This document shows, one piece after another, positions 3,643 to 61,624 of a DNA stretch of 64,000 bases (positions are counted from its first letter, which is position 1; every line of letters begins with the position of its first letter). The stretch lies in assembly GCA_013178305.1 (NCBI GenBank), contig JABLXB010000002.1, positions 124,001-188,000 on the forward strand, in the 5' to 3' direction. A program made the position numbers and the translations under genes. This DNA comes from Bacillota bacterium. GTDB taxonomy: Bacteria > Bacillota > Sulfobacillia > JABLXB01. Below the pieces are notes generated by a model. That model was not told the DNA's origin. It saw only the letters and a list, made by a program, of their open reading frames with translations, and did no database searches.

Positions 3643-3762
3643 CGGCCGCCTCCGGGCTGCTGCGTCGGCCGGAGCCACAAGCCGTGCCCCCGGCGCTACA
3701 CGGAAATGATTCCCCCAGCAACGCCGGATTCCTGCCTGCCGACCGGTCTGGCCGGTCGCCCG

Positions 3763-4251: not shown

Positions 4252-4261
4252 TGCGACTCCC

Positions 4262-4295: not shown

Positions 4296-4343
4296 TCGCG
4301 GGGATGCGCCTGTTAGCGCGCCGCTTACAACGAGCGCGCTGCA

Positions 4344-4498
4344 AGGCCCTCTCCCATTCAGACTTTACTGTCGGCCCCGGATTCTCACCGGGTCAATCGC
4401 TGAGGCTGATGGGCTCGTCCCCTGAGGGCATCACCACCGGTTGGGAATCGGGACGGACCGGTTGAAACGGTCCCCCTAACCCTACCCCGAAGGCTCTC
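4344..4498 (-). promoter_or_regulatory. FMN riboswitch (RFN element)
   Basis: On the minus strand the leader has the RFN hallmarks in order: a P1 strand GCCUUC, CGGGGUAGGGU, a GC-rich variable stem, CGAUUCCCAACCGGUGGUGAUG, a GACGAGCCCAUCAGCC arm, GACCCGGUGAGAAUCCGG, and the strongly conserved CCGACAGUAAAGUCUGAAUG ending in GGGAGAGGGC, which pairs with P1. It would bind FMN and switch off ribU when flavin is sufficient. Confidence 0.93.
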
Positions 4499-4506
4499 TC
4501 ACCTTG

Positions 4507-4535
4507 AATATACACCTGTTACCGGGCGCGGGCAA
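4507..4535 (-). promoter_or_regulatory. Sigma-A-type promoter of the FMN-riboswitch transcript
   Basis: On the minus strand TTGCCC (4530-4535) and TATATT (4507-4512) are exactly 17 bases apart. Transcription would begin a few bases before the 5' end of the RFN element, so promoter, aptamer, terminator and gene are in register. Confidence 0.7.
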
Positions 4536-4618
4536 CAGGGACTAGATCATTTTGAGCGTCGCAGTCCTCTTGACGACGACTCCTCCGCCCCCTTGAACGT
4601 CGTCGCCTCGATCTGTAC

Positions 4619-5389
4619 TCATTTCTTGTTTCTCCTCTGCAAGAAGGCCCTGGTGCCCGATTCAAATCCCTTGGTCGTGGCCACCTGCGTATTGCCAAGT
4701 GACTCAAGGAGCATGCCAACCTCCCAGTCGATTTCGAAGCTCTTGTTCGCAAGGAACTTCAAAAGCCAGAGGGACGTGGGGCTCTTGCCGGCGAGGTCCA
4801 GTGCAAGCGCCCTGCATTCTTCCAACACTCTGCCATCGTCCACAACCCGGTTCACCAGGGTCAGCCTGTAGGCTTCTTCGGCGTCGACGAGCCTGCCGGT
4901 GAACAGCAGTTCCTTGGCAACCCCGCTCCCAACCACCCTGGTTATCCTGAATGAGCCACCGGCCCCCGTTATGCTCCCCAGCGTCACCTCGGGGAGTCCC
5001 ACCCTGGCCGACCTGGCCGCAATACGTATGTCGCAGGCCAGCGCCATTTCGAAACCCCCGCCAACGGCGGGACCGTTGATGGCGGCGATTACGGGCTTGG
5101 GCATCGTCTCTATCACGGCGTTGATCTCGGCCCCCATCGCGGCATGGTGTCTCGCCGCATCGGGACTATACGTTGCAAGCTCCTCGATGTCCGATCCGGC
5201 GCAGAACCCGCGGCCCATACCCGTTATGATCACGACTCGGGCGCGATCATCCGCTTTGACTTCCTGGACTTTCTTCAGAAGCATCTCCATCATGGCGTCC
5301 GTCATGGCGTTGAGCACGTGCGGCCGGTTCAGCTTGATGATAGCTATCGGTTCCTCCACCTCGACAATTACCTCGGGCTCGGAGCCCAT
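4619..5389 (-). CDS. Enoyl-CoA hydratase/isomerase (crotonase family)
   Basis: A 256-residue crotonase-fold enzyme, likely hydrating a 2-enoyl-CoA. Visible features are IKLNRPHVLNAM at the N-terminus, the oxyanion-hole segments GFCAGSDIEEL and INGPAVGGGFEMALACD, and GLPEVTLGSITGAGG. The second crotonase catalytic Glu position falls in PEVTLGS; the first is less certain, so isomerase or hydrolase activity is possible. The ATG follows GAGGTGG by 7 bases. It is last in the CoA-transferase, acyl-CoA dehydrogenase, hydratase operon driven by the sigma-54 promoter at 7831-7844. Confidence 0.85.
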   Translation of the reverse strand: MGSEPEVIVEVEEPIAIIKLNRPHVLNAMTDAMMEMLLKKVQEVKADDRARVVIITGMGRGFCAGSDIEELATYSPDAARHHAAMGAEINAVIETMPKPVIAAINGPAVGGGFEMALACDIRIAARSARVGLPEVTLGSITGAGGSFRITRVVGSGVAKELLFTGRLVDAEEAYRLTLVNRVVDDGRVLEECRALALDLAGKSPTSLWLLKFLANKSFEIDWEVGMLLESLGNTQVATTKGFESGTRAFLQRRNKK

Positions 5390-5433
5390 CGCTCAGCCAC
5401 CTCACTCTGCGTTTGAGTGTCGCACCGCTCAGA

Positions 5434-6579
5434 TCACTTGATCGCTTCGAGGACTTGCCTGGCAATGACCAGCCGCTGGATCTCGTTCGTCCCATCGTAG
5501 ATCTGGGTGATCTTGGTGTCTCTGAAGTACCGCTCCACCGGGTAATCCTTCATGTACCCATACCCGCCGTGTATCTGGACCGCGTTGGAGACGTGCTTCA
5601 TGCATTCATCGGTCGCGAACAGCTTCGCCATCGCCGCTTCGAGGGTATAGCGACGCCCAGTTGTCATGAGAAAGGCAGCCTGATAAGTCAGGAGGCGTGC
5701 GGCTTCCAGGGACGTACGCATATCCGCAATCATCCACTGGATCGCCTGGAATTCGGCTATGGGTTGGCCGAACTGAACACGCTGCTTGGCATATTTGACG
5801 GACGCTTCGAGGGAGGCCTGCATGATGCCGAGTGCGAGGGCCGCAACATAAATCCTCGCGGGGTCAAGTGAGGACAGGGCTATCTTGAACCCCTCGCCCT
5901 CCTTGCCGACCAGGTTCTCTCGGGGAACCCGCACATTCTCGAAGTGGATCTCGGCGACGGGGTTCCCCCTCTGGCCCATCTTCCTCTCGTGCTTCCCGAC
6001 CATGTAACCGGGCCTGTCAGACTCCACGATTATACAGCTCAGGCTTTTCTTGCCCTTCGAGCGGTCCGTCAGCGCCACAACGTGCGTAAAATCAGCAACG
6101 GGCGCCAGGGTGCAGAACGTTTTCGTGCCATTGATTACGTACTCGTCTCCCTCGAGCTCTGCAGTCGTGGTAACCCCGCCGGCATCAGAACCGGCATTAG
6201 GTTCGGTAAGCGCGAAACTCGGAATGATATCGCCGCTGGCCATGCCTGGAATCCACTTCTCCTGCTGCGCCGGGGTCCCAAACTTCTCCAGAATCCACAT
6301 GTTCTGCCTGAACGAGGTGAGGAGGCCGGACATCGCCGCGCTTCCTCGCGCGACTTCCTCGGCCGTTATCGCCGCAGGGACACCCGCCATGCCTAGCCCT
6401 CCCAGTTCGGGCGACAGCTCGAGATCGAGCAAATTGACTTCAGCAATCTTCTTCAGGATGTCCCTCGGGAACTCGTCTGTCTCGTCGATCTCCGCGGCCC
6501 GGGGCACGATTACCTTGTCGACGAACTCACGCGTTGCTTTTTGAATCGATACCTCTTCCTCCGAAAGCTGGAAGTCCAT
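5434..6579 (-). CDS. Acyl-CoA dehydrogenase (Glu-to-Asp at the usual catalytic position)
   Basis: A flavoprotein of the acyl-CoA dehydrogenase family, 381 residues, the usual length of short/branched-chain members. It shows the N-terminal helical domain, FALTEPNAGSDAGG and the GTKTFCTLAP beta domain, and the C-terminal VQIHGGYGYMKDYPVERYFRD. The segment that normally reads IYEGTxEIQ is IYDGTNEIQ, so the base that abstracts the alpha-proton would be Asp, not Glu. Electron-transfer flavoprotein genes are not in the window. Its neighbours suggest oxidation of a CoA-activated short or branched carboxylate. Confidence 0.9.
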   Translation of the reverse strand: MDFQLSEEEVSIQKATREFVDKVIVPRAAEIDETDEFPRDILKKIAEVNLLDLELSPELGGLGMAGVPAAITAEEVARGSAAMSGLLTSFRQNMWILEKFGTPAQQEKWIPGMASGDIIPSFALTEPNAGSDAGGVTTTAELEGDEYVINGTKTFCTLAPVADFTHVVALTDRSKGKKSLSCIIVESDRPGYMVGKHERKMGQRGNPVAEIHFENVRVPRENLVGKEGEGFKIALSSLDPARIYVAALALGIMQASLEASVKYAKQRVQFGQPIAEFQAIQWMIADMRTSLEAARLLTYQAAFLMTTGRRYTLEAAMAKLFATDECMKHVSNAVQIHGGYGYMKDYPVERYFRDTKITQIYDGTNEIQRLVIARQVLEAIK

Positions 6580-6595
6580 GGTTTTTCGCCCCCCT

Positions 6596-7804
6596 CTAGA
6601 TCACTTTTCTGTCGTGCAAGTCTTTGATGTAGTTCCGGTCGAAGCCAAGCAGTTTACCGTAAACCTCCTCATTGTGCTGGCCCAGCGTGGGAGGTGGAGC
6701 GTAGACCGCACCCGGCGTCGCCGAAAGCTTCGGGCACACACCGCTTAACCACACCGGACCAGCCCCGGGATAGTCCACCTTCTCCACCATACGGCGTGCC
6801 TTGACCTGCGGGTCATCGGGGACCTGATCTACCGAGAGTACGGGCCCACAGGGAACGCCGGCTTCGTCGCATATCGCGATGACTTCGGCAACGGTGTGCG
6901 TTTTGACCCACCCGCTCACGACTTCATCCACGAGGTTGACGTTCTGGCGACGCGCAGTGTCCGACCCAAACCCCGGGTCCGATGCCAGTTCTTCACGCCC
7001 CATCGCCTTCGCGAATCTGGCCCACAGCACATTTCCGGTAACGCCTATGACCAACCAACCGTCCTTGGCCTCGTAAGCGTTATAGGGAGCGTTGCCACGG
7101 GTGCGACTGCCATCTCGCTGCCACACCTCTCCCAGCGCCATGTAGTTGGTTACCGCGTTCTCCAGCACCGCAACGACCGCATCGTGCATGCTGGAGTCGA
7201 CCCACTGACCCTTCCCTGTGCGTTCGCGATAATGCAGCGCGGCCAGCGTCCCATACGCACCGAACAGGCCGCCGAGGAAGTCCCCCATGGCATTCCCCGT
7301 GCGCGTAGGCGGCCCATCGGGGTAGCCGGTGTAGCTCATGAGTCCCCCCATCGCCTGGGCTACTATGTCAAGGGCTGTTCTGTGGGAGTAAGGGCCATAT
7401 TGTCCGAACCCGCTAACGGACGTCATAATAATCCCGGGGTTCACCCTGGACAACTCATCGTACGAGATCCCCAACCTGGCAAATGTTCCGGGCCGGAAGT
7501 TCTCGACAACCACATCCGATACCTTAACGAGGCGCTTGAAGATGTCCGCGCCCTCGGCTGTGGCGAGGTTCAGTGTAATGCCTTTCTTGTTTCGGTTGGA
7601 GGCGAGGAAACACGTTCCTATCACGTCCGATATAATCGGCGCGATCTTGCGTGATTCGTCACCTTCGGGCCGTTCGACCTTGATAACCTCCGCTCCCATA
7701 TCAGCCAGGAGCATACTGACGTACGGTCCAGCCAGGAAATGCGTAACGTCGAGCACGCGTACCCCTTCGAGAGCCATTTCCACAGCAATCATCCCTCCAC
7801 TCAT
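6596..7804 (-). CDS. CoA transferase, family III (CaiB/BaiF/Frc type)
   Basis: Transfers CoA between carboxylates. The ~402-residue product has GVRVLDVTHFLAGPYVSMLL, GAEVIKVERPEGDESR, NRNKKGITLNL, VVVENFRPGTFARLG, and GNAMGDFLGG carrying the conserved catalytic Asp of the family. A longer in-frame reading starts at 7834, but that codon lies inside the sigma-54 promoter, so the first usable start is the ATG at 7804 (GAGG 8 bases upstream). A GTG at 7783 behind GGAGGG is an alternative and gives the usual MALEGVRVLD start. It is first in the leftward operon. Confidence 0.88.
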   Translation of the reverse strand: MSGGMIAVEMALEGVRVLDVTHFLAGPYVSMLLADMGAEVIKVERPEGDESRKIAPIISDVIGTCFLASNRNKKGITLNLATAEGADIFKRLVKVSDVVVENFRPGTFARLGISYDELSRVNPGIIMTSVSGFGQYGPYSHRTALDIVAQAMGGLMSYTGYPDGPPTRTGNAMGDFLGGLFGAYGTLAALHYRERTGKGQWVDSSMHDAVVAVLENAVTNYMALGEVWQRDGSRTRGNAPYNAYEAKDGWLVIGVTGNVLWARFAKAMGREELASDPGFGSDTARRQNVNLVDEVVSGWVKTHTVAEVIAICDEAGVPCGPVLSVDQVPDDPQVKARRMVEKVDYPGAGPVWLSGVCPKLSATPGAVYAPPPTLGQHNEEVYGKLLGFDRNYIKDLHDRKVI

Positions 7805-43617: not shown

Positions 43618-44856
43618 CAGGTCCTCCTCAGCGTCCCCGAGAATGGCGAGAGCAGCCGGGAACGGAGACAGCGCGCGGCACAGGACGCCGTGCATGTGCG
43701 CCATGAGTATCCCGTAGTTTACTATGGGGACTCCGGCATTGCGCGCCTGCAGCAGCCGGTAGAGCATCTCCCGCCTGTTCAACATGCAGGCGCCGCAGTG
43801 GACTATCAGCCTGTAGTCGCGCAGGTTCTGCGGGAGCCCGCCACCGCCGCTGACCACGTCGAACCGGAGTTCTCCGCCCGCCACCTGTCTCAGCCACCGC
43901 GGTATCTTCACGCGCCCGATGTCGTCTTCAACTGCGTGATGCGTACACGCCTCCGCGATCAGCACCCTGTCGCCCGGCCTCAGGTCCTTCACCACCTTTG
44001 CGCCCGCGACCAGGGTGTTCAGGTCGCCCTTGTACCGCGCGAACAGGATGGAAAACGAGGTGAAAAGCACGTCGGGAGGCGTGTCGGCCACAGCCTTCAG
44101 GAAGGCCGACGAGTCGCAGACCACCAGCCTGGGCTGGAGCCGGACGTTATCGATCACGTGCCTGAGTTCCCGCTCCTTGACCATCACGGCTACCGAGTCG
44201 TGCTCGAGCACGTCGCGGATGACCTGTTGCTGCGGCAGGATGAGCCTCCCTTTCGGCGCGGCCTTGTCTATGGGGATTACCAGGATGACCACGTCTCCCG
44301 CGCCGATGAGGTCGCCCACGATGGTGGGCAGCGTCCAGTCTCTGGGAGCCGTCTGTACGACCTTCAGCTTCAGTTCGTCTATCCCCTGGCCGTTCAACGC
44401 GCTAACGACGACCGCAGGGACGCCGAGTTCCGCCGTCCAGTCGCGACCCTCCGCCTGCGGGTATGCGTCCACTTTGTTAACCACTGCCAGGACTGCGGCG
44501 CCCTGTTCCCGCACCTTCGCAAGCACTGTGCGCTCGTACTCTCCGATGTCGCCGGCCGGGTCTATCACGAGGAGAGCCAGGTCCGTCCTGTTCAGCACGG
44601 ACAGCGTCTTTTCGACGCGGAGCCTGCCCAGGTCGCCGGCGTCGTCCAGCCCGGCGGTGTCCACGATGGTAACGGGACCGAGGGGGTGCAGTTCCATGGC
44701 CTTCGCCACGGGGTCGGTAGTGGTGCCCGGGACATCGGACACGATGGCGACGTACTGGCCGGTAAGGGCGTTGATCAGGCTCGATTTGCCGGCGTTCCGC
44801 CGCCCGAATATGGATATATGCAGCCGCTCGCCTGCCGGCGTTGCGTTAAGACTCAC
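43603..44856 (-). CDS. hydF: [FeFe]-hydrogenase maturation GTPase HydF
   Basis: Scaffold that carries the diiron precursor of the H-cluster to the hydrogenase. The ~417-residue protein has a GTPase domain (GRRNAGKSSLINALTG, DVPGTTTDPV, DTAGLDD, NKVD), a dimerisation domain, and the C-terminal cluster ligands EACTHH and HCGAC. GTG at 44856 is 5 bases after GGAGGTGA; longer frames upstream lack a site. Its stop arises inside sequence derived from a cotJC relic, so the last residues (WRSP) may be recent. Overlaps the aspA end by 11 bases. Confidence 0.93.
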   Translation of the reverse strand: MSLNATPAGERLHISIFGRRNAGKSSLINALTGQYVAIVSDVPGTTTDPVAKAMELHPLGPVTIVDTAGLDDAGDLGRLRVEKTLSVLNRTDLALLVIDPAGDIGEYERTVLAKVREQGAAVLAVVNKVDAYPQAEGRDWTAELGVPAVVVSALNGQGIDELKLKVVQTAPRDWTLPTIVGDLIGAGDVVILVIPIDKAAPKGRLILPQQQVIRDVLEHDSVAVMVKERELRHVIDNVRLQPRLVVCDSSAFLKAVADTPPDVLFTSFSILFARYKGDLNTLVAGAKVVKDLRPGDRVLIAEACTHHAVEDDIGRVKIPRWLRQVAGGELRFDVVSGGGGLPQNLRDYRLIVHCGACMLNRREMLYRLLQARNAGVPIVNYGILMAHMHGVLCRALSPFPAALAILGDAEEDLWRSP

Positions 44857-46414
44857 GCGCGTCACCTCCGGTTTGACGCCCGCCACGAATTGTTGACTCC
44901 TGTCTGTCCTGCGGGGCTGCGGCGGAACCCGCAGGGATGCCGGGGCCGGTAGTCGCGCGACTCTCCCGGATGCGCTTTATATGCCGCGCCCCCGCAACAC
45001 CCGGCGTCGTCAACTCCTGGGGCTGAAGTATGGCGTCGAGTTCCTCGGGAGTGAAAAACCCCTCTTCGCGGATCACATCTGTGACAGTCCTGCCCTCGCT
45101 CAGGGCCCTCCGCACCACCCCTGTGGCCCTGTCGTACCCGAGGTACGGCGCGAACGCGGTTATGACCCCGTAGCTCCTGTTCAGCAGATCCCGGCACCTC
45201 GCCTCGTCGGCCTCTATGCCCGCGACGCACCTTTCCGCGAGGAGCCGCGCCGCCCTGGCCATCATCTCGAGAGACTGGAGGAGGTCATGGGCGATGAGCG
45301 GCAGGAAGGCGTTGAGCTCGAGCTGCCCCGAGGCCGCCGCAATGTTGATCGCCGCGTCGTTCGCCATCACCTGGAAGGCAACCTGTGTGACCATTTCGGC
45401 CATTACGGGGTTGACTTTCCCCGGCATTATGGAAGATCCAGCCTGGACCTCCGGAAGCCTGATCTCGCCGAACCCCGCGTGCGGGCCCGACGAAAGAAGC
45501 CGGAGGTCGGCCGCTATCTTGGCGAGGTTCACGGCCGCAGCCTTGACGAACCCCGAGACCTCGACGAACACGTCCGCGTTCTGGGTGGCCTCGACCATGT
45601 TCTCGGCGCGCGCAAGGCCGAAGCCGGTGAGCTCGCGGAGGATCTCGATCACACGGAATATATACCGCCGGTCGGCATTGAGGCCGGTGCCTATCGCTGT
45701 GCCGCCGAGGTTCACCTGCCTCAGCCGTTCCTCGGCCTTGTACAGGCGCCACCAGTCGCGGGCCACCGCCTCCGCGTAAGCGCCGAACTCCTGCCCGAGC
45801 GTGATGGGCACCGCGTCCTGCATCTCCGTCCGCCCGATCTTCAAGACGGCGGCGAACTGCTTTTCCTTCGCCTGCAGCGCCCCCTGCAGGCAGGCCATGG
45901 CCTGGGCCATTTCCCTGACCAGCCTGATTGCAGCCACGCGCAGCGCGGTCGGGTAGACGTCGTTCGTGGACTGCCCTAGGTTCACGTGGTCCAGGGGGTG
46001 TACAAGGGTGTAGTCGCCCCTCCTCCCGCCCAGTATCTCGATGGCGCGGTTCGCTATCACCTCGTTGACGTTCATGTTGGTCGACGTACCCGCGCCGCCC
46101 TGGAAGGCGTCGACGACTATCTGGTCGTGGAACCGGTCCCCGGCCAGCTCGTCCGCGGCAAGCGCTATCGCCTGTCCAATGGTTGGGTTGAGGAGCCCGA
46201 CCTCGACGTTGGCGATAGCCGCCGCCTTCTTCACCAGGGCCATCGCCCACACCAGCGCGGGGTGTGCGCGGATGCCGGAGACCGCGAAGTTGGCCATCGC
46301 CCGCGCTGTGTGGATGCCGTAATAGGCGTCCGCAGCCACAGGCATCTCCCCCAGCAGGTCCTTCTCGATCCTCGTCTCAACACAGTTTCCGGTTCTCATC
46401 TCGCCGTCGTTCAC
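44846..46414 (-). CDS. aspA: Aspartate ammonia-lyase, in the hydrogenase maturation operon
   Basis: Deaminates aspartate to fumarate and ammonia. The fumarase/aspartase signature GSSIMPGKVNP is present, with HTARAMANFAVSG, GGAGTSTNMNVNEVIANRA, LDHVNLGQSTND and IGRTEMQDAVPITLGQE. At 522 residues it is about 50 longer than usual because of an unstructured Pro/Gly/Arg-rich tail. It lies between hydG and hydF, an arrangement seen in other anaerobic Bacillota. HydG uses tyrosine and HydE methylthio-cysteine-type substrates, so why aspartase is linked is unclear; ammonia supply for the dithiomethylamine bridge is a possibility. GTG start behind GGGGGCG. Confidence 0.92.
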   Translation of the reverse strand: MNDGEMRTGNCVETRIEKDLLGEMPVAADAYYGIHTARAMANFAVSGIRAHPALVWAMALVKKAAAIANVEVGLLNPTIGQAIALAADELAGDRFHDQIVVDAFQGGAGTSTNMNVNEVIANRAIEILGGRRGDYTLVHPLDHVNLGQSTNDVYPTALRVAAIRLVREMAQAMACLQGALQAKEKQFAAVLKIGRTEMQDAVPITLGQEFGAYAEAVARDWWRLYKAEERLRQVNLGGTAIGTGLNADRRYIFRVIEILRELTGFGLARAENMVEATQNADVFVEVSGFVKAAAVNLAKIAADLRLLSSGPHAGFGEIRLPEVQAGSSIMPGKVNPVMAEMVTQVAFQVMANDAAINIAAASGQLELNAFLPLIAHDLLQSLEMMARAARLLAERCVAGIEADEARCRDLLNRSYGVITAFAPYLGYDRATGVVRRALSEGRTVTDVIREEGFFTPEELDAILQPQELTTPGVAGARHIKRIRESRATTGPGIPAGSAAAPQDRQESTIRGGRQTGGDARES

Positions 46415-46442
46415 GTGCTATTCGCCCCCGCCTGACTGGTCC

Positions 46443-47879
46443 TCAGAAGTACAGGTCCCGCCGGCCTGCCTCGATCAACTTGAGCCTGCGCTCCGTCTCC
46501 CGGCGGACGTTCTCGTTGGGGATGGCGGCCATGTGTTCCCTGATGGCCTGCTCCCCGACATTCTTCGTTTCCTCGGAAGCGTAGTCGATGAGGAATTCCT
46601 TGAAGGTGAGGATCGCGTTCGGCGCGCAGACGTTCTGGATCTCGCCGGTCCTGGCGAGCGCCATGAACCTGTCGCCGGTGCGCCCCTGGCGGTAGCAGGC
46701 AGTGCAGTAGCTCGGGATGTACCCTGACGCTGCCACGCTCCGGATTATCTCGTCCGGGCTCCGCCTGTCCTCCACGTTGAACTGGGCGGTCTGCGAACCG
46801 GCTTCGCTCCCGCCCGTGCGCCCGCCGGTTCGCCCGCACGTCTCCGCGCTGTAACCCCCCACCCCAGTGCAGGAACCCGCGCTGATCTGTGAGATGCCCG
46901 TGGCTATGACCTGGTCCCTGAACTCGGGCTTTTCACGCGTGGAGAGGATCATCCCTGTGTACGGCACCGCCAGGCGCAATACCGCGACGATCCGCCTGAA
47001 CTCATCGTCGCCCACGATGCAGGGGAACTCGGAGGCGTCGACCCCGAGGGCGGGCCTCAGCCTGGGCACCGAGATCGTGTGCGGGCCGACCCCGAATTCC
47101 TTCTCGAGGTGCGCCGCGTGTTCGAGCAGGCCGAGTACCTCGAAGCGGTAGTCGGACAGCCCGAACAGGACGCCAAGCCCCACATCGTCTATGCCCGCCT
47201 CCATAGCCCTGTCGTGCGCCGTTGTATGCCAATCGTAGTCCTGCTTGGGGCCGGAATGGACGTCGCGGTACGTGGCACGGTGGTAAGTCTCCTGGAACAG
47301 GACGTACGTCCCGATCTTCGCGTCCTTCAGGCGGCGGTAGTCGTCCACCGTGGTTGCCGCGATGTTGACGTTAACGCGCCTGATGTTGCCGTTCTCGTTC
47401 CAGGTCTCGTAGATGGTCCTGATGACGTCCACAACGTAGTCGATGGGGCAGTTCACGGGGTCTTCCCCGCACTCCAGCGCCAGCCGCTTGTGGCCCATGG
47501 CTTCGAGGATCCTGACCTCCTCCGTTACCTCTTCGAGGGTCAGCCGCCTGCGGGGGAAGCGGTTGTCGCGCCGGTACCCGCAGTACCTGCAATTGTTGAC
47601 GCAGAAGTCGCTGACGTAGAGTGGGGCAAAGAGGACGAGGCGCTTCCCGTATATCTTCTCCTTAATCTCGCGGGCGGCCGCGTACATCTCCCCCAGCCAC
47701 CCGGCGTCGGTCACCTGGAGGAGGGAGGCGGCGTCCTCTTCCGGAATGCCCTTCGCCTCCCTCGCCCTTGCGATTATCTCGTCGAACCTCCCCCTGGACG
47801 GGGCCTTCGCCGTCTCCAGAATGCGGTCTATTCTCTCCTCATCGATGAACTCAGCGGTCCTGGTAATCTTCCGGGACAT
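46443..47879 (-). CDS. hydG: [FeFe]-hydrogenase maturase HydG (radical SAM tyrosine lyase)
   Basis: Cleaves tyrosine to make the CO and CN ligands of the H-cluster. The ~478-residue protein has the radical-SAM motif DFCVNNCRYCGY, the ThiH-like core (ECGEDPVNCPIDYV, GTYVLFQETYHRATY), and the C-terminal auxiliary cluster SYCTACYRQG with a later Cys in IQNVC. ATG at 47879 follows GGAGGTG by 6 bases. It overlaps the end of hydE by 29 bases. The C-terminal third has a Gly-rich insertion near GGRTGGSEAG. Confidence 0.95.
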   Translation of the reverse strand: MSRKITRTAEFIDEERIDRILETAKAPSRGRFDEIIARAREAKGIPEEDAASLLQVTDAGWLGEMYAAAREIKEKIYGKRLVLFAPLYVSDFCVNNCRYCGYRRDNRFPRRRLTLEEVTEEVRILEAMGHKRLALECGEDPVNCPIDYVVDVIRTIYETWNENGNIRRVNVNIAATTVDDYRRLKDAKIGTYVLFQETYHRATYRDVHSGPKQDYDWHTTAHDRAMEAGIDDVGLGVLFGLSDYRFEVLGLLEHAAHLEKEFGVGPHTISVPRLRPALGVDASEFPCIVGDDEFRRIVAVLRLAVPYTGMILSTREKPEFRDQVIATGISQISAGSCTGVGGYSAETCGRTGGRTGGSEAGSQTAQFNVEDRRSPDEIIRSVAASGYIPSYCTACYRQGRTGDRFMALARTGEIQNVCAPNAILTFKEFLIDYASEETKNVGEQAIREHMAAIPNENVRRETERRLKLIEAGRRDLYF

Positions 47880-48921
47880 ACCGCGCACCTCCGGTTTTCT
47901 CTTCACGTCTTCTCCCACTCCAACCGTACCCGCCGGCCATGGTCAGCCCGATCCCTGCAACCAGCCGGTTGAGCCTGTTGAACGATTCCCGGGGTTCCTC
48001 CGTAGACCCGGCCTTGCCGGGGTAGATCTCGTAATCCGGCCTGTAGCGCTGTGGCGTGATGTTCGGCATGATCACGTTAGCGCCGCACCGTAGCGCCTCC
48101 GCCCGGTAAAGCGGCCCCAGGGTCCCGAGCGCGGTCGTCGCCGGGATGTTGGCCCACGGGAGGTACAGCCGCATGATAGCGATGACCTTGAGGCTCAGCT
48201 CGGCTGAGCCGGCCGGCAGACTGCCCAGAGGGGTATCACCGTGGGGTATGAAGGGGCCCGCCGACGCCATGTCGACTTCCAGGCCTCGAAGCAGCAGGAC
48301 GTCTCCGGCGATGGAGTCGAGCGTCTGCCCTGGAAGACCGACGATGATACCGGAGCCCACCTCGTAGCCGAGTCCGCGCAGCCATTCAAGGCACCTGAGC
48401 CTGTCCTTCAAAGCACAGCCGGGCTTCATCAAGGCGAACAGCGCGTCGTCCGAGGTCTCGAATTTGAGGAGGTACCTGTCTGCCCCCGCATCCCTCCATG
48501 CCCGGTACTCCCGTTTGGGCCTGACCCCAACGGACAATGTGATCGCCACGCCGGCCCTATGCTTAATTGACGAGATGATCCCTGCAAGAACGTCCGTTGT
48601 AAACCACGGGTCCTCGCCGCTCTGGAGCACCACGGTCCTGAGCCCGAGGCGCGACCCGGCGACAGCCGCCTCGACGATTTCCTCCGGCGTCATCCTGTAC
48701 CGCCTGACGCGTGTATTGCTGCGCCTCAGGCCGCAGTAGAGGCAGTCCTGCTGGCAGTGGTTCGAAAATTCTATGATCCCCCTGAAATGGACGACATCCC
48801 CTCTCTCCGAAGAACGGACCCGATCCGCTGCGGCCAACAGGCGGTCCCGCTCGTCCGCGGCGCCGGACAGCATCCGCATTACCTGAGCAAGTTCGGTAGG
48901 CAGGTCCAGTGCAGCCTCCAC
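47851..48921 (-). CDS. hydE: [FeFe]-hydrogenase maturase HydE (radical SAM)
   Basis: Radical SAM enzyme acting on the HydG product during assembly of the [2Fe] subcluster. The 356-residue protein has the motif SNHCQQDCLYCGLRRSN, then QSGEDPWFTTDVLAGII, KFETSDDALFALMKPG, GIIVGLPGQT and MPNITPQRYRPDYEIYPGK, as in HydE/PylB-type enzymes. GTG at 48921, 7 bases after GGAGGTGA. It follows the TM1266-like gene by about 100 bases. Confidence 0.94.
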   Translation of the reverse strand: MEAALDLPTELAQVMRMLSGAADERDRLLAAADRVRSSERGDVVHFRGIIEFSNHCQQDCLYCGLRRSNTRVRRYRMTPEEIVEAAVAGSRLGLRTVVLQSGEDPWFTTDVLAGIISSIKHRAGVAITLSVGVRPKREYRAWRDAGADRYLLKFETSDDALFALMKPGCALKDRLRCLEWLRGLGYEVGSGIIVGLPGQTLDSIAGDVLLLRGLEVDMASAGPFIPHGDTPLGSLPAGSAELSLKVIAIMRLYLPWANIPATTALGTLGPLYRAEALRCGANVIMPNITPQRYRPDYEIYPGKAGSTEEPRESFNRLNRLVAGIGLTMAGGYGWSGRRREEKTGGARYVPEDYQDR

Positions 48922-51488: not shown

Positions 51489-51736
51489 GTTATGCTCCTT
51501 GGATTGGGTTTCCTATTCGTCCGCCAGTTTTTCCGCCGCTTCCGCGCTCATCCGCTATCTCCAACATCCCCAAATATCTCACAAAAACCCACGTTGTCTT
51601 CTCCAACGCTCGCGGCCGAGTTCTCAAGTATCAAAAGCCGCAGGATTATGTCCAGTAGTAATTGAATTCGTATGGCGCGAAGCACGCCCCGTCCAGGCGG
51701 GCCGGGCTCGACTATCAATGGGTGGTGGAAGCGGCG

Positions 51737-52030
51737 TTGCCTGATAAGGCAAGGATATCCCTCAAATTCTATAATCTGGTGCACGAGGTTGCCGGCACGG
51801 CCGGCGAAAGTCTCGAGGTGGACCAGGTCACCCCATGGGGAGAGGTCATCCACAGCGCCTGCGCCAAATTCGGGCCGGAATTCCGCAGCCTGGTGATGCC
51901 CTCGCCCGGCACGCTGGGTCCGCAGGTCCGCATCCTGTTGAATGGCCGCATCCTTCTGGATGATGACCTCGAGCGCCCGGTCGGCGACGGCGGGGAAGTC
52001 GTGTTCTTTTCGGCGATCTCCGGCGGATAG
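51737..52030 (+). CDS. MoaD/ThiS-family sulfur carrier, second copy
   Basis: About 97 residues with the beta-grasp pattern: ARISLKFYNLVHEVAGTAGE, then GPQVRILLNGRILLDDD and the C-terminal VVFFSAISGG with the reactive double glycine. The start is uncertain: TTG at 51737 with a weak GGTGG upstream, or alternative GTG codons at 51722 and 51725, or a TTG at 51662. It converges on the AOR gene at 52126, not in an operon with it. The 248 bases between ubiB and this gene hold no other supported gene. Confidence 0.7.
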   Translation: MPDKARISLKFYNLVHEVAGTAGESLEVDQVTPWGEVIHSACAKFGPEFRSLVMPSPGTLGPQVRILLNGRILLDDDLERPVGDGGEVVFFSAISGG

Positions 52031-52125: not shown

Positions 52126-54021
52126 TCATCCCCTACAGTGGGCCGGATGTCCAGTGATGCAGTCCAGCCCGAGTTCCTTGAGTTTATCCGGGGTGGGGAT
52201 TCCATTCCGGTCCCAGCCACGGAGCTCGTAGTATTCGTCGATCATCCGGTCAAGATCGATGACAAGGCCCTCCCTGACAACCGCGCCCTTCACAGGCTCG
52301 CCGTCCGGCCCGATATCGTATCTCACTACCTTTCCAGTTTCGTGAGTAAACCGCTTCGGCAGGGCGTCGTCCTTCCTATCCAGCCCGCACCTCACGTTGA
52401 ACATCCTCTCGATGTTCACTACCCGTTCCCCTGCCTTGAGAAGCTCTTTCTCCGTGAACTCCAGGCCCAGCGCGGTCAAGCCCGCCGCGACATCGTCCGG
52501 ATAAAGCGCGTAATTCTCGAGGGTGGAGAATTTGCACACTCCCACACAGTCAGTCACAGCGCTGTATTCTTCCGTGAACTTCACCAGGCGCGCCTTGTGT
52601 TTCTCGGAAATGAAATCCATGAGTTCCGGCATGATATCCGGGAACAGCCTCTCGCCCGCCTCGACGTTCCCCGCAAGGTCAATCGTCGGCAGCGCGTACA
52701 GGTGATCCGCCCCGCGGTTGGATACCGCGTGCCCCAGGCCGAACGCCTTGCACACCCTGGGTTCCTGCCTGGGTATCTCCACTCCCTTCACATGCATCGC
52801 CACTTCCACAGCCCTGCCACCAATCTCGGTGGCGGCGTCCCTCACCCCGTTCGCGAGGATGGCACCCAGCCCCCGCCTGTTCGCAATGTCGTGGATGAGT
52901 CCCACGATGCTGCGCCCGTCCCCCCAGCCCAGGCTGTAGTCCGGGGATTTGAGCAATCCGAGTTCGCCACACTCCATGGCGAAAGCGATTACCACGCCGG
53001 TGGATATCGTGTCGATCCCCAACAGGTTGCAGAGCTTGTTGGCGTATATCACGAGTTCGGGGTCATTATTCCAGATCATGGGGCCAAGCGCGTCCACACT
53101 CTCGTATTCAGGGCCTTCCAGCTCGCACTTGTACGGGCCGTCGCTCACCGCCGTCAGGCGCGAGCACTTTATCGGGCACGCGAAGCATCCCCTCGTCCCC
53201 GTCGTGTATTTCGCCAGCGCCTCGGCGTCAACACGATAGGACCACGGGAACTGCAGGAGCTGATGGTTCTTCGATGGGAGGTCGCCCTTGAGATTCTTAT
53301 ACTTGATGAGAATCGGGGTCCCCCACTCTGCGAGTCCCTTGGAGCCAGGGTGTCGCGACACCTTGTTGAAGGCCTCCCTGGCCACCTCCCTGAACGCGTG
53401 GCTCACCGGAGGGGATGCCCCCTTCACCGCAGCCACGGCTTTCAGCCGCTTGGATCCCATCACGGCGCCCATCCCGGTGCGGGCGGCTGCGCGGCCATAA
53501 TCGTTGATTACGGCCGCAAACCGGACGAGATTCTCCCCGGCGGGGCCTATGGACGCCACCCTGGAGCCCGGGTGACGCCCCCTGAGGATCATCTCGGCAC
53601 CCTCAGTGGTCGAACCCCAGATATCCGACGCGTCTTTCACCGTTACCCTTCCCGCCTCAACCAGTAGATACACCGGGTTCCTCGCCTTACCCGTCACGAA
53701 CAGCATGTCGAACCCGGCGCTCCTCAGGGCCGGCCCGAAATGCCCCGACGCATTTCCGTACCCGTAGGCCCCCGTCGCGGGAGACTTCGCCGTCACCACA
53801 TACCTGGCGGCAGTAGGCCACGGAGTTCCCGTCAGTGGCCCCACGCTGAAGATGAGCGGATTGTCCGGCCCCAGCGGGTCTGTCGCGGGGCCGGCCATTT
53901 CGTACAACGACGACGCAGCCATTCCCCGGGATCCGACGAACTGCCGGTATATCGCCTCGTCAATTTCCTCGTAGTCTATTGACCCGGAACCAAGGTCGAC
54001 GAACGCTACTCTCCCGATCAT
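52126..54021 (-). CDS. Aldehyde:ferredoxin oxidoreductase family 2
   Basis: A 631-residue AOR of full length. It starts GRVAFVDLGSGSIDYEEIDE, has AKSPATGAYGYGNASGHFGP, the AARTGMGAVMGSKRLKAV block, the cluster motif GCFACPIKCSRL, and the later TDCVGVCKFS. The spacing CxxCxxxC is the canonical AOR pattern. ATG 54021 with GGGGTG upstream. It follows the PreA-like flavoprotein gene by 53 bases and is last in that operon. Confidence 0.92.
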   Translation of the reverse strand: MIGRVAFVDLGSGSIDYEEIDEAIYRQFVGSRGMAASSLYEMAGPATDPLGPDNPLIFSVGPLTGTPWPTAARYVVTAKSPATGAYGYGNASGHFGPALRSAGFDMLFVTGKARNPVYLLVEAGRVTVKDASDIWGSTTEGAEMILRGRHPGSRVASIGPAGENLVRFAAVINDYGRAAARTGMGAVMGSKRLKAVAAVKGASPPVSHAFREVAREAFNKVSRHPGSKGLAEWGTPILIKYKNLKGDLPSKNHQLLQFPWSYRVDAEALAKYTTGTRGCFACPIKCSRLTAVSDGPYKCELEGPEYESVDALGPMIWNNDPELVIYANKLCNLLGIDTISTGVVIAFAMECGELGLLKSPDYSLGWGDGRSIVGLIHDIANRRGLGAILANGVRDAATEIGGRAVEVAMHVKGVEIPRQEPRVCKAFGLGHAVSNRGADHLYALPTIDLAGNVEAGERLFPDIMPELMDFISEKHKARLVKFTEEYSAVTDCVGVCKFSTLENYALYPDDVAAGLTALGLEFTEKELLKAGERVVNIERMFNVRCGLDRKDDALPKRFTHETGKVVRYDIGPDGEPVKGAVVREGLVIDLDRMIDEYYELRGWDRNGIPTPDKLKELGLDCITGHPAHCRG

Positions 54022-56674: not shown

Positions 56675-56818
56675 TCACCTGTACTGTTTGAGTACCGACA
56701 GCGGTGGGAACGTTATGGCTTCCACCGGACACCGCGGAGCGCAGTTGCTGCAGCCTACGACGCAGTTGTGCGGGTTCGCCACCACGAGCTTCTGATCTCT
56801 CGGCACCTTGAATGTCAT
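56675..56818 (-). CDS. 47-residue [4Fe-4S] ferredoxin-like protein
   Basis: Product begins MTFKVPRDQKLVVANPHNC and carries CVVGCSNCAPRCP (C-x3-C-x2-C-x3-C-P), a single [4Fe-4S] motif, then VEAITFPPL. ATG at 56818 has GGAGGGG 6 bases upstream. A four-cysteine set on one cluster with a short chain fits a minimal electron carrier or a subunit fragment of a larger complex. First gene behind the promoter/operator at 56900-56952. Confidence 0.7.
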   Translation of the reverse strand: MTFKVPRDQKLVVANPHNCVVGCSNCAPRCPVEAITFPPLSVLKQYR

Positions 56819-56963: not shown

Positions 56964-57251
56964 CTATCCCCCGAGTATCGGGCTTGACACTTCCACGATG
57001 TCGCCGGCCTCGACACGGTCTGATTCCCCCGCCTTGACGCCGTTGATGGCGCAGATGAAGTACTTCCTCTGGACCGCGTCGCGGAAGAGTCGCCGCAGCA
57101 CTTCAACCCTGTCCCCCACCTCGTCCAGCAACCGTCCGAGCGTCATGCCTTCACCTGCAGCATGGGATCGGGGGATCTCGAGGGTTATCTCACCGGCCGA
57201 AGCAATCTCGTTGAAGGGACTACCCAGCCTCACTGTCACGGAATCCGGCAC
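56964..57251 (-). CDS. MoaD/ThiS-family sulfur carrier, third copy
   Basis: A 95-residue beta-grasp protein: SVTVRLGSPFNEIASAGEIT, GMTLGRLLDEVGDRVE, KYFICAINGVKAGESD and a C-terminal SSPILGG double glycine. GTG 57251 is 7 bases after AAAGGAGG. It overlaps the end of the H-cluster-like gene by 16 bases, so the two are translationally coupled. Confidence 0.8.
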   Translation of the reverse strand: MPDSVTVRLGSPFNEIASAGEITLEIPRSHAAGEGMTLGRLLDEVGDRVEVLRRLFRDAVQRKYFICAINGVKAGESDRVEAGDIVEVSSPILGG

Positions 57252-58066
57252 AGCGTTTCCTCCTTTGCGTAGCCGGGCGCATCCTCAGGCGCCCTCGAAC
57301 GAACCACGGGTGCGCTTGACTGTATGTGGTGGATCAGGATGGACCGGCGGTCCACGCCCGCCGTCTCGGCGAGCATTCCGTCACCGTACAGACACCCCCC
57401 AGGGCAGGCAAGGGCTTCAATGAACCGCGATTCGCGTGTACTGGGTGATAGAGAGGCCAGGAGACTGCGGCACTGGTCCAGTCCGGATACATCCAGAGCC
57501 AGGAGCGAGACGAGCACCCATCGGGGCGCGACTGCGTCCGGTTCGGTGGGTTCCAGGCGTGCGAGGTCAATCCCCTCGTTCGCAAACCACAACGCAAGTT
57601 CCGAGAAGGACAGCACACCATCAGCGGAACCGCACCGCTCTGCCTCGAAGGCCTTGGCGGTGCACGGCCCGATGAATACTACGGGGCCGCCCACCCTTTC
57701 TCGCATCCCCCGGCAATGGCAGCTCATCGGGGATGGCGCGTCAACCAGGTAAGTGGCGGCGTGCGGGAATTCGTCTTTGACCATGCTGACTACTCTCGGG
57801 CACGAATTCGATATGACAGGCGAACGATGCGACTCCAGGAGGCGGCGACGCCGTTCGAATATCTCCGGTAACACGCACGCCGTTTCTTCCACCCTGGAGA
57901 ACCCGAGAAGCCGGAGTGCGGACACAATTCGGCCCGCCTCCACACCCGGGAATGCGCAGACGTACGACGGGGCAAGACTCACGGCGGCCACGGGGCTTGC
58001 GGCAATGAGCTTCCTGATCTCCGATGGATCTCTGGCAATACGATGGCGTGTCAATACAGTCACCAT
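57236..58066 (-). CDS. Stand-alone [FeFe]-hydrogenase H-cluster-domain-like protein
   Basis: A ~276-residue protein matching only the large-subunit C-terminal domain of [FeFe]-hydrogenase, without its ferredoxin domains. Signature 1, normally TSCCPxW, reads SNSCPRV: the cluster-ligand Cys (~89) stays but the proton-relay Cys is Ser. Signature 2, normally MPCxxKxxE, is FIGPCTAKAFEAE (Cys ~135). Signature 3 is EALACPGGCLYGDG (Cys ~221 and ~225). All four [4Fe-4S] ligands are kept, the catalytic surroundings are changed. It resembles NarF/Nar1-type or sensory hydrogenase relatives more than a working hydrogenase. Coupled to the MoaD-like gene. ATG 58066, GTG 58069 possible. Confidence 0.78.
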   Translation of the reverse strand: MVTVLTRHRIARDPSEIRKLIAASPVAAVSLAPSYVCAFPGVEAGRIVSALRLLGFSRVEETACVLPEIFERRRRLLESHRSPVISNSCPRVVSMVKDEFPHAATYLVDAPSPMSCHCRGMRERVGGPVVFIGPCTAKAFEAERCGSADGVLSFSELALWFANEGIDLARLEPTEPDAVAPRWVLVSLLALDVSGLDQCRSLLASLSPSTRESRFIEALACPGGCLYGDGMLAETAGVDRRSILIHHIQSSAPVVRSRAPEDAPGYAKEETLCRIP

Positions 58067-58155
58067 CACTATCCTACCGCATAAAGGGTCGCGGAGCCAA
58101 GACCGTTGACATACCGTAAGCCGGCAGTCTACGATTTGACCAGGGGGTGACGGTC

Positions 58156-58617
58156 TTGACTGTGGAGAGTGGTCTCACCTTGTCACCGGCAACACCGTCC
58201 GACCTGGACTCCGTCGTAGGCCTCGTGCGGTCTGCGGGCCTTCCCACAGACGGCATCGCCGAGAACCTTCAGCACTTCAAGGTGGCCAGGGATCCCGCCG
58301 GCAGGCTGGCTGGGGTCGCGGGCGCGGAGATCTACGGCGACCAGGCCCTGCTGCGCTCGGTGTGCATCGCGCCTGAGTACCGTGGTAAGGCCCTGGGCTC
58401 GCGTTTGACCGGGGCCATTATGGATTACGTCCGCGACGCCGGCTGCAAAGAGGTCTACTTGCTGACGACCACCGCGGCCGGCTACTTTGCCAGGAAAGGG
58501 TTCGCGCGGGTGGACAGGTCCGCCGTGAGCGGGCCGGTGCTGAAGTCAGTGGAATTCGCGACCGCCTGTCCAAAGACGGCGACAGTAATGCTCGCGCAGA
58601 TGGACACCACCGGTTGA
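58156..58617 (+). CDS. arsN2: GNAT-family N-acetyltransferase, ArsN2-like
   Basis: A ~153-residue acetyltransferase with LTLSPATPSDLDSVVGLVRS, YGDQALLRSVCIAPEYRGKA, LGSRLTGAIMDYVRDAG, and YLLTTTAAGYFARKGFARVD. The LLTTTA-x-FFxxxGF pattern and length fit ArsN2, which acetylates arsinothricin-type amino compounds. No arsenic genes are near, so another amino substrate is possible. TTG 58156 is 8 bases from GGGGG; GTG 58147 overlaps the site. Divergent from the H-cluster-like gene. Confidence 0.75.
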   Translation: MTVESGLTLSPATPSDLDSVVGLVRSAGLPTDGIAENLQHFKVARDPAGRLAGVAGAEIYGDQALLRSVCIAPEYRGKALGSRLTGAIMDYVRDAGCKEVYLLTTTAAGYFARKGFARVDRSAVSGPVLKSVEFATACPKTATVMLAQMDTTG

Positions 58618-58684: not shown

Positions 58685-61624
58685 TCAAACGTGTAGGCGT
58701 GACGGCGTTCCGGCGGCCGGTCGGCTCACGGGCTTGAACGTGAGGGCGCGCATTACGCACGCGGCCACGCACGCCGGCTGCTCTCCCGCAGCGAGGAGGT
58801 CGCTGCACAGGTCGCACTTCGCGGCCTTTCCGCGGCCCCCCAGCACCTGGACTCCGCCGTTCGGGCAGGCGTCCGCACAGGCGCCGCAGCCAGTACATAG
58901 CGCTTCGTCGATCAGGACCGCTCCGTCCGCCCTCCTACTGACCGCGCCGCTCGGACACGCCCCGGCGCAGGCGGGGCTCTCGCAATGGTCGCACGATAGC
59001 GACAAATGATAGACCTCGGGCCTCGGGTATTCGCCCCCCTCGAACGTGTCGACGCGCCGGATGAACTCCCCCACGCCGAGGTTGTTCCTGTCCTTGCATG
59101 CGATCTGGCAGGCCTTGCACCCGATGCACAGACTCGAATCGAACTGTATGGGGCCGCCCTGCGACGCCCCCTGGCTGCCGTCGCGTCGCACGCGCCGTCC
59201 GCCGTCCGCAGGGGGCCGGCCCGAACCTCTGTACCTCTCAACCTGGACATTGCACGAGTTCCACCCGGAATGCCCCTGTCCCGTGGGTATGGCGCCTACC
59301 AGCACGTTTGCCGACGCGCCCCTGTCGACGCACTCGTTCTCGTCCATGTCCGCCCACGCGCCCTCCGGGAGCGACACCACACCCGGCATGACCCGCGCCG
59401 TGACACGTACAGGGCAGATGATCCGGCCGTGCTTGCTCGAAACCACGACGGTGTCGCCGTCCGTTATGCCCCGACTAGAGGCATCGGCCGAACTCATGAG
59501 CAATTCCTGAGGAAACGCCTCGGTGAGCCAGGGTACGCCGGCAAGGCTGGAGTTGGTCCTTCCCCGCGCGTGCGGGGTAATCATCTGCAGCGGGTACCCA
59601 GCTCCACCCTCGGAGGCATCCTCGTACCCTTCGACCGGCCTCCGGTACTCGGGTAGCGGCGAAATGCGGTCCCACCCACACGACCGGACGAACTCGGCGA
59701 TGACCCTGCAGTGGATCTCGAGCCTGCCGCTCCGGGTGTCTAGCGGGTACCGGGCCGGGTCCGCGCGGAATCTCTCAAAGGCGATGTGCCCCAGGGAGTC
59801 GCAGGCGGCGCGCGGAACCTGATAGATGCCACGTTCCTTGAACTCACGGAACGGGATCCTCCCCCGTTGCGGCCGTCCCTCCACGCCGATCTCCTCGATG
59901 TCGGTGGCGCTGATATCGACCAGGGGCTCGAAGCCGGAGCCGTCCGCCCTGGCGACGACGGCGCCGGCCACCTGATTGAACACCTGCTGCTTGAGCGGTA
60001 CAGGGTCGATGGCCCCGGGGTCAAGGCCGAGACGCCTGCCGATCTCGACAGCAATCCAGGAGTCGTCCCTGGATTCAAACAAAGGCTCGACAACCTGACT
60101 CGCGAAGACGATTATCTCGCGGTTACCCGTCTTCACCAAGCCGAAACGCTCCCACGGCGTCGTTACCGGGAGCACGATGTCGGAGTACCGCGCCTGCGTG
60201 CTGAAAAACGGGTCCTGCGTCACGACGAACTCGACCCTGCGGTGAGCGTCGATCCCCTTCACCAGCCCGGTGAGCTGGTTGAGCTTCGCGGCGCCCGCAT
60301 GGTATATCAGCCGGATACCGGCTTCTCCCTCCACGCCATCCCCAAGGGTGTACCTTCCCGTGAGCACCGCGTCCCAGACCTCGTTGTTGTTTACGGCAAG
60401 TGAGGCCAGCGGGTTGGCGATGTCAGGCACCCCGGGGTCACCCGCCCGGACCAGCGCAGGCCCGCCGTTCCCGGCGGCGGCGTAGGCGCTGACCCCCGTC
60501 ATCCTACCCGGGAGCCCGAAGTGCCCGGTCATGCAGCCCAGCGCCATAAACACCTGCGGCCACGAGTCGGCGCTGTTGACCCGAGCCGGCGCCCAGCCGG
60601 TAAGAAGCGCGACCCGTTTGCGGCAGCCGATCTCCCTGGCCAGCCTGCGGATGGTTTCGGGTTCCACGCCGCAGATCCGCGATGCCCAGTCCGGAGTCTT
60701 CGGCTGCCCATCCCGCGTTCCGAGCAAGTAATCCTTGAAGTTGCTGCGCGGGTCCTCGCCGCCGGGCATGTGTTCCCTGTCGAACCCCACCGTGCAGCGG
60801 TACAGGAAGTCCCAGTCCATCAACGGATCGGACGAGGGGTCGTCTTCCGTCAGCAGGGTGTGCGCTATACCCAGCGCCAGCGCATGGTCGGTCGCGGGAC
60901 GGCAAGGGATCCAGTCCCCACCCAGCACGCGAACTGAATCAGTGTAGACGGGGTCGATGAAGATGAATCTCGCACCCGCCCTGGCAGCCTGGAGATAGTT
61001 GTAGGTCGGGTTTCCACCGCTCGACAGCGCGGGATTGGCCCCCCACACCACGACGACCTCGCTCCGGCGAAGGTCGAAGCGGTCGTTGATGTACATGCAG
61101 CCACTACCCCTGTCGAGGCCGATGGCGGGGCCTGTATTGAGCCACGTCCCCCAGGACGTTGAACCCCACGACGTCAGGTACCCGCCGTAAAGCGACAGCA
61201 TGCGGCCTATTTCAGCGCCCCACGCCAGGATCGAAGCGTTGCCGTAAGCGGTCTTCACGCGCTCTATCTCACCGGAGACCACATCGAGCGCCTCGTCCCA
61301 CGAGATCCGCTCCCACTCGTCCCGGCCGCGAAGGTCCTTCCTGCCGCCGGGCGCCCAGTGCTTGCGCTTCATAGGGTGCCTGACGCGGTTCGAACCGAAC
61401 ACAGCCTGCCGGTAGGCGCGTCCCCGAGCGCACGCCCTTTGCTGCGGGAAGTCGGGACTGTCTGAGTGAGTGTCGTCGGTCTTCTGACGGATCGGTACCT
61501 CGCCGGCAACGTACACCCTGTTCAGGCAGCGACCACCGCAGTCGCCCCAGCAGGCGGCGGTAACCCACCTGCCCCCTGCTGCAGTATTTCCGGTGCTATC
61601 AGTATTGCCGGTGTTATGCTCCAC
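58685..61624 (-). CDS. Fused molybdopterin oxidoreductase and ferredoxin subunit (DmsA-DmsB type)
   Basis: A 979-residue fusion. Residues ~20-75 hold the N-terminal [4Fe-4S] site (AACWGDCGGRC, later CARGRAY). The next ~700 residues are a DMSO-reductase-family catalytic domain (SILAWGAEIGRMLSLYGGYL, VVVWGANPALSSGGNPTYN, AKLNQLTGLVKG, PQMITPHARGRTN-like cofactor binding). After a Gly/Ser/Arg-rich linker (~800) comes a DmsB-type four-cluster domain (LCIGCKACQIACKDR, CDHCESPACAGACP, CTGCGACADACP). No membrane anchor (DmsC) or Tat RR motif is seen, so it is probably cytoplasmic. Oxidant or reductant unknown. GTG behind GGGGGTG. Confidence 0.85.
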   Translation of the reverse strand: MEHNTGNTDSTGNTAAGGRWVTAACWGDCGGRCLNRVYVAGEVPIRQKTDDTHSDSPDFPQQRACARGRAYRQAVFGSNRVRHPMKRKHWAPGGRKDLRGRDEWERISWDEALDVVSGEIERVKTAYGNASILAWGAEIGRMLSLYGGYLTSWGSTSWGTWLNTGPAIGLDRGSGCMYINDRFDLRRSEVVVVWGANPALSSGGNPTYNYLQAARAGARFIFIDPVYTDSVRVLGGDWIPCRPATDHALALGIAHTLLTEDDPSSDPLMDWDFLYRCTVGFDREHMPGGEDPRSNFKDYLLGTRDGQPKTPDWASRICGVEPETIRRLAREIGCRKRVALLTGWAPARVNSADSWPQVFMALGCMTGHFGLPGRMTGVSAYAAAGNGGPALVRAGDPGVPDIANPLASLAVNNNEVWDAVLTGRYTLGDGVEGEAGIRLIYHAGAAKLNQLTGLVKGIDAHRRVEFVVTQDPFFSTQARYSDIVLPVTTPWERFGLVKTGNREIIVFASQVVEPLFESRDDSWIAVEIGRRLGLDPGAIDPVPLKQQVFNQVAGAVVARADGSGFEPLVDISATDIEEIGVEGRPQRGRIPFREFKERGIYQVPRAACDSLGHIAFERFRADPARYPLDTRSGRLEIHCRVIAEFVRSCGWDRISPLPEYRRPVEGYEDASEGGAGYPLQMITPHARGRTNSSLAGVPWLTEAFPQELLMSSADASSRGITDGDTVVVSSKHGRIICPVRVTARVMPGVVSLPEGAWADMDENECVDRGASANVLVGAIPTGQGHSGWNSCNVQVERYRGSGRPPADGGRRVRRDGSQGASQGGPIQFDSSLCIGCKACQIACKDRNNLGVGEFIRRVDTFEGGEYPRPEVYHLSLSCDHCESPACAGACPSGAVSRRADGAVLIDEALCTGCGACADACPNGGVQVLGGRGKAAKCDLCSDLLAAGEQPACVAACVMRALTFKPVSRPAAGTPSRLHV

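Follow-up and report, generated by a model that had tools for sequence, protein, structure and literature searches.

The fold of the [FeFe]-hydrogenase H-domain is used without hydrogenase activity by Nar1/IOP1 in cytosolic Fe-S assembly. Nar1 retains an N-terminal cluster and a C-terminal region, both missing from the stand-alone H-domain described here, and to our knowledge it has no MoaD-like partner. In the hydrogenases, a plug, a lid and a lock shut the 2Fe site after insertion of the 2Fe unit, which F417 of CpI contacts (PMC5954619, PMC12933642), and in the known enzymes 2Fe coupling requires this stable closure (PMC12933642). Groups C and D, to which the sensory HydS proteins (M2f/M2e) belong, ordinarily lack the proton-relay Cys (PMC8163306, PMC11803613); in TamHydS Ala takes its place (PMC11803613). 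The closest working precedent for a ubiquitin-like carrier acting together with an Fe-S protein is TtuA/TtuB, in which the C-terminal thiocarboxylate of TtuB delivers sulfur to a [4Fe-4S] enzyme and the thiocarboxylated tail binds the TtuA cluster (PMC7138817). TtuA uses ATP, holds its cluster by three Cys with a free iron and has tRNA as substrate. The carriers MoaD, ThiS and SAMP1 share a beta-grasp fold, a flexible tail and a C-terminal GG.

The window, which is the whole stretch of 64,000 nucleotides analysed, carries an H-domain gene that overlaps a gene for a MoaD/ThiS-like protein (table 1), and both are confirmed as real genes. We know of no description of an H-cluster fold cooperating with a ubiquitin-like sulfur carrier. 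The preliminary description had reported four cluster cysteines, a relay Cys changed to Ser and the overlap of the two genes, and the ORFs and alignments agree with it. The larger ORF has no profile match besides the [FeFe]-hydrogenase H-domain, and the match of the smaller to the ThiS profile is weak (E=2e-4, 0.5 bit under the curated cut-off). A 47-aa mini-ferredoxin-like ORF (including NCVVGCSNCAPRCPVEAITF) closely follows the MoaD-like gene on its strand and is preceded in another frame by a short IPTKAQIKAWFKK ORF; the two are possibly a single broken gene.

Table 1. Features of the H-domain/MoaD-like gene pair and its surroundings, in window positions; CpI equivalents are from alignment to CpI and the family.
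Feature	Position	Strand	Remarks
H-domain ORF	57236..58069	-	277 aa from GTG58069; likelier start ATG58066, 6 nt after TAGGA; Fe_hyd_lg_C (Pfam) E=1e-35
MoaD/ThiS-like ubiquitin-fold ORF	56964..57251	-	95 aa, GTG start, C-terminus SPILGG
Overlap of the two genes	57236..57251	-	16 nt, from ORF coordinates
AAGGAGG ribosome-binding site of MoaD-like gene	57259..57265	-	within H-domain gene; 7 nt before GTG
Codon S89	57803-57805	-	at group-A proton-relay position, CpI C299
Codon C90 (NSCP)	57800..57802	-	cubane ligand, CpI C300
Codon C136 (GPCTAK)	57662..57664	-	cubane ligand, CpI C355
Codon K139	57653-57655	-	CpI K358
Codon C222 (ACPGGC)	57404..57406	-	cubane ligand, CpI C499
Codon C226 (ACPGGC)	57392..57394	-	bridging-ligand position, CpI C503
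Mini-ferredoxin-like ORF	56675-56818	-	47 aa
ArsN2 arsenic-resistance N-acetyltransferase	58147..58617	+	divergent, 77 nt off; NCBIfam NF040501 141.8 bits, cut-off 125
Molybdoenzyme, DMSO-reductase family	58685-61624	-	single 979-aa ORF
AOR gene	52126-54021	-	
MoaD-like gene of AOR	51662-52030	+	convergent; C-terminus SAISGG
hydE	47851-48921	-	H-cluster maturase, over profile cut-off
hydG	46443-47918	-	H-cluster maturase, over profile cut-off
hydF	43669-44841	-	556 bits; G000:C2:167669-168841

The AlphaFold2 model of the window H-domain (pLDDT 87, pTM 0.84; confident up to residue 254) has its best PDB fold matches among [FeFe] hydrogenases (E 1e-11 to 1e-13). C90, C136, C222 and C226, the ligand cysteines, are invariant in 13/13 homologues, and the homologue of genome G019 contains these four cysteines and no others. 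By alignment, the CN-binding positions are kept as well, namely Ser35 (in A-P-S, CpI 230-232) and Lys139 (in PCxxK, CpI 358). The relay position is occupied by Ser in 12 of the 13 proteins and by Cys in G015, while the positions of CpI Met353 and Met497 hold Gly/Ser/Thr and Leu (Thr in one), and the group-A combination of relay Cys (CpI C299) and Met353/Met497 is found in none of the stand-alone H-domains. The Ser emphasised earlier is present, but it is ordinary for H-domains outside group A.

The protein begins at the H-domain, with neither the N-terminal two-[4Fe-4S] domain nor any ferredoxin-type Cys motif, and past C226 only about 25 ordered residues remain, the C-terminal Cx2Cx4Cx16C cluster and the PAS domain being absent. 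Compared with HydS, it has also lost an 18-21-residue FPLxGGLLKTA segment, which aligns with the plug of CpI (405-423, including F417/GG). This loop is missing in 12/12 stand-alone proteins, whereas every A-type protein and the majority of the HydS-type have it, and the spacing from PCxxK to ExxAC is 79-110 (median 82) in the stand-alone proteins versus 137 in the A-type. Because the plug is lost, the sequence predicts an open diiron site like that of apo-HydA1. Read at the level of sequence, the protein is an H-domain without electron-input clusters, signalling tail or plug, in which the four [4Fe-4S] ligands and the CN-binding Ser and Lys positions have been kept.

Relatives were searched by profile with the H-domain sequence alone. 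Twelve further stand-alone genes were found in other genomes of a single phylum, giving 13 loci, mostly in draft assemblies: six members (window counted) among 154 genomes of the class, six more in a phylum sample of 398, and a thirteenth, G549, found later and independently with the finished profile. The homologues are 236-303 aa long and score 304-375 bits versus at most 235 for full-length proteins, with a profile that was built from the stand-alone members themselves. A 65-sequence tree places the first 12 stand-alone proteins in one clade of common descent (support 100/99), nested in the HydS-type (sensory) part and outside group A. The clade is scattered in its distribution, and its long internal branches suggest that the group is probably old. 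HydS proteins are its nearest relatives in the tree and share with it the motifs APS, (S/A)CP, SPM, GPCxAK and ELLACxGGC, as well as the replacement of the relay Cys; they differ in having the N-terminal [4Fe-4S] clusters, the Cx2Cx4Cx16C cluster/PAS and the FPLxGGLL plug loop, and in the absence of a MoaD-like partner and a context of hydrogenase rather than arsenic genes. Identity as a group C/D sensor was rejected, since neither the N-terminal clusters nor the C-terminal cluster/PAS domain is present, and the earlier view, by which the protein is something other than an ordinary sensory hydrogenase, holds. A viral or plasmid element was likewise rejected: the viral contigs searched contain no match, and the plasmids searched only hydrogenase matches of at most 35% identity.

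Two control sets were used for the gene neighbourhoods. A single scan of genome contigs, which recovered two stand-alone members, also yielded 78 full-length H-domain loci; because this set is biased to gut Clostridia, the 42 other H-domain loci of the same 12 genomes served as a second control. The MoaD-like gene adjoins the H-domain gene in 12/13 loci, whereas it stands beside a full-length H-domain in 0/78 and 3/42 control loci. In the thirteenth locus, G239, the contig breaks off on the flank that carries the partner in its sister, G264. Ten of the partners are downstream of the H-domain gene and two, those of G015 and G264, upstream; about -16 to 206 nt separate the two genes, and a second MoaD-like copy is found beside ACR3 in G324. 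The three same-genome cases are one orthologous AOR-MoaD-hydrogenase cluster of three related genomes, with no linkage to ars genes. Genes for AOR, a small MoaD-like protein and a full-length-type H-domain protein of ~430 aa were seen together in L217 (G324, 2940-6871), L218 (G520) and L219 (G482). The supposition that the pairing is meaningful is upheld by the search for conserved pairing, which extends well beyond the genome of the window, and chance is excluded because the pair is conserved in 12 of the 13 loci.

The partner has sequence and fold characteristics of a sulfur carrier, although it is highly diverged from MoaD, ThiS and SAMP1 and is paired with an H-domain protein. Six partner homologues exceed the ThiS cut-off, and the AlphaFold2 model of the G482 partner matches the MoaD/SAMP1 fold (TM 0.75-0.84). 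The C-terminus is GG in 11/13 copies, that of the window included; the two copies without a free GG end are those of G053 (GGQML) and G502 (AG). Distances of the H-domain and carrier proteins correlate (rho 0.52, p=0.0006; 0.44, p=0.004 with near-copies removed), a signal that vanishes without the whole G482/G502 group (p=0.16). In the neighbourhoods of the pair no E1-like activating gene was seen, and no MoaE or ThiG partner was noticed beside the carrier.

The context that is conserved around the pair is arsenic resistance. Counting ACR3, ArsA, ArsD, ArsC, ArsP, ArsE and ArsN2, arsenic-type genes lie within 6 kb of 10/12 stand-alone loci (11/13 with G549) versus 0/78 of the full-length controls (Fisher p=2e-12), and near 0/42 of the other H-domain loci of the same 12 genomes. 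PF03773 permeases and ArsE-like thioredoxins also occur outside arsenic systems; the strict count of ACR3, ArsA, ArsD and ArsC is 8/13 versus 0/78 (p=2e-8). In an unbiased census of 118 neighbouring proteins, ArsP_1, ThiS, ArsR, ACR3, ArsE-type thioredoxin and ArsA ranked highest. The operons read ArsR-ArsD-ArsA-ArsA-(110 aa)-H-domain-carrier, then ArsC, in G482 and G520; ArsA-ArsD-ACR3-carrier-H-domain in G015; ACR3-CcdA-thioredoxin-carrier-H-domain-cupin in G264; ArsR-ACR3 fragment-H-domain-carrier-ArsP-like permeases in G502; ArsP-like permease-ArsE-H-domain-carrier in G019; and, inside an ACR3/ArsP island, cysteine desulfurase-FeS protein-H-domain-carrier-ArsE in G046. Minimal SufB/SufC genes occur near the pair in three genomes (L166 11097-12114, L167 2231-3866, L191 2970-4620). 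In G002 the pair is present with no ars gene on its 13.7-kb contig, and the contig of G053 is too short to judge. It is strongly supported by these gene neighbourhoods that the pair is a module usually placed within arsenic-resistance gene clusters of many unrelated anaerobic bacteria. Two surveys of ars genes (PMC6205960, PMC4435449) leave hydrogenase-like and MoaD-like proteins unmentioned, and a search of the open-access literature found nothing relevant that links hydrogenase or MoaD to arsenic operons.

Details of some operons can be added. The 110-aa protein between ArsA and the H-domain gene (L166 7881-8213, L167 6489-6821) contains a GGGCSCGGGC motif and has no Pfam or NCBIfam match. 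The ACR3 gene beside the pair of G502 is a 5' fragment only (L169 6598-6996), which abuts the H-domain gene directly; another partial ACR3 is located elsewhere in that genome.

The pair had at first been placed in an AOR/molybdopterin island. As AOR is near only two of the 13 pairs (the window copy and G502), this island was rejected as the functional context in favour of arsenic resistance, which the first reading had missed although the ArsN2 gene is adjacent. ArsN2 is the sole arsenic neighbour of the window pair, and a search of the window's genome revealed no ACR3. The AOR gene of the window has a MoaD-like gene of its own, distinct from the carrier of the pair, and the nearby DMSO-reductase-family enzyme has a DmsB-like ferredoxin domain fused C-terminally. 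The maturase genes hydE, hydG and hydF are grouped on the minus strand with a putative aspartate-ammonia-lyase-like gene (43669-48921), and no full-length hydrogenase gene lies between this group and the stand-alone H-domain gene; the genome holds five further H-domain genes, all full-length. These maturase genes, 8-14 kb from the pair, are context, and an action on the H-domain protein is conceivable.

What could such a pair contribute to arsenic resistance? Its position in these clusters points to a previously undescribed, sulfur-based handling of arsenic. We tentatively favour, at less than even confidence, an accessory module of the arsenic-resistance operons of anaerobes, in which sulfur from the carrier is released at the open [4Fe-4S] H-domain for an arsenic or arsenic-linked step. 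A cellular E1-like enzyme would charge the C-terminal Gly of the carrier with a thiocarboxylate; the extended tail could then enter the open channel above the [4Fe-4S] cluster, where hydrogenases hold the 2Fe unit. Sulfur freed at the cluster would pass to a trivalent arsenical, or serve an arsenic-linked sulfur or cofactor step, and the product would be exported via ACR3/ArsP or be less toxic. The presence of an Fe-S cluster, the charging of the carrier, the transfer of sulfur and arsenic as the substrate are what we infer here. The working mode proposed resembles tRNA thiolation by TtuA/TtuB in another fold, and the cysteine desulfurase of G046 and the SufBC genes of three loci fit the theme of sulfur and Fe-S. 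On the other hand, the window protein does not show the TtuA fold with its three-Cys [4Fe-4S] cluster: it has the H-domain fold and no known ATP site. It has four Cys ligands, so that no iron is obviously free, which counts against the model, and the evidence is computational throughout. The missing E1-like neighbour, the tails of G053 and G502, the G002 contig, the lack of ACR3 in the window's genome and the dependence of the distance correlation on the G482/G502 group were weighed against it too. Of the new roles suggested earlier, cluster delivery and molybdopterin sulfuration find no specific support, whereas the meaningful pairing stands, and transfer of sulfur to or through the Fe-S site is plausible.

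Thioarsenicals form in anoxic, sulfidic settings, and we know of no dedicated enzyme that makes them. A narrower version is enzymatic arsenic thiolation, in which the opened H-domain and the thiocarboxylated carrier sulfurate trivalent arsenicals in anoxic cells and the thioarsenicals are exported; we hold this specific version to be unlikely, though far from negligible.

Were HydEFG to install a 2Fe unit, the protein could instead be a redox enzyme that reduces an arsenical (or uses H2 to do so), and the MoaD-like protein would take the place of the plug as a structural or sealing subunit. Ser35 and Lys139 are kept, canonical [FeFe] hydrogenases were present in 12/12 genomes tested, and full HydF is found in 9/12 of these genomes versus 35/154 in the class (4/6 versus 31/148 within the class, p=0.02), besides the hydEGF group of the window. 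We nevertheless consider it rather improbable, given that the protein is without electron-transfer clusters, that the plug loop is lost, known enzymes requiring a stably closed site to couple 2Fe (PMC12933642), and that the co-occurrence of maturases is expected from anaerobic hydrogen metabolism alone.

Two further explanations are assigned little probability. Nesting among HydS-type proteins and the frequent ArsR neighbours would suit a HydS-derived sensor informing the ars operon of H2, redox state or Fe-S damage, but output domains such as PAS or a DNA-binding domain are lacking, the C-terminal cluster of groups C/D is absent, ArsR is already there as a sensor and the MoaD partner is left unexplained. 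Equally doubtful is a role of the pair in protecting or rebuilding an Fe-S or sulfur cofactor sensitive to arsenic, with ars genes as neighbours because arsenic causes the damage. Carrier proteins do serve cofactor sulfuration in known pathways, and SufBC beside three loci and cysteine desulfurase beside one accord with it; the neighbours, however, include no conserved target enzyme, and conservation does not extend to the AOR and molybdoenzyme genes close to the window copy.

The cysteine pocket could also bind As(III) in place of an Fe-S cluster and hand it to efflux pumps, as ArsD does. No cysteines besides the four invariant ones are conserved, and ArsA, ArsD and ACR3 co-occur with the pair. 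Other parts of the Fe-S/CN pocket (APS, SPMxxH, PCxxK) are conserved beyond the needs of a thiol trap, several operons already have an ArsD and the MoaD partner again has no role; the chances of this explanation are slim. A decayed sensory hydrogenase lying by coincidence beside an AOR-type MoaD gene is scarcely credible, even though the window AOR has its own MoaD-like gene and AOR-MoaD-hydrogenase neighbours exist elsewhere (L217, L219), since one clade with conserved motifs, pairing in 12/13 loci and an arsenic context in 11/13 contradict it.

If the favoured sulfur-releasing module does act on arsenic, it would add a new step to the arsenic chemistry of anoxic, sulfidic settings. If true, this would be a case of the hydrogenase fold redirected to sulfur chemistry via an opened cofactor site, and it would give a testable function to genes that are annotated merely as '[Fe-Fe] hydrogenase C-terminal domain' and 'MoaD/ThiS'.
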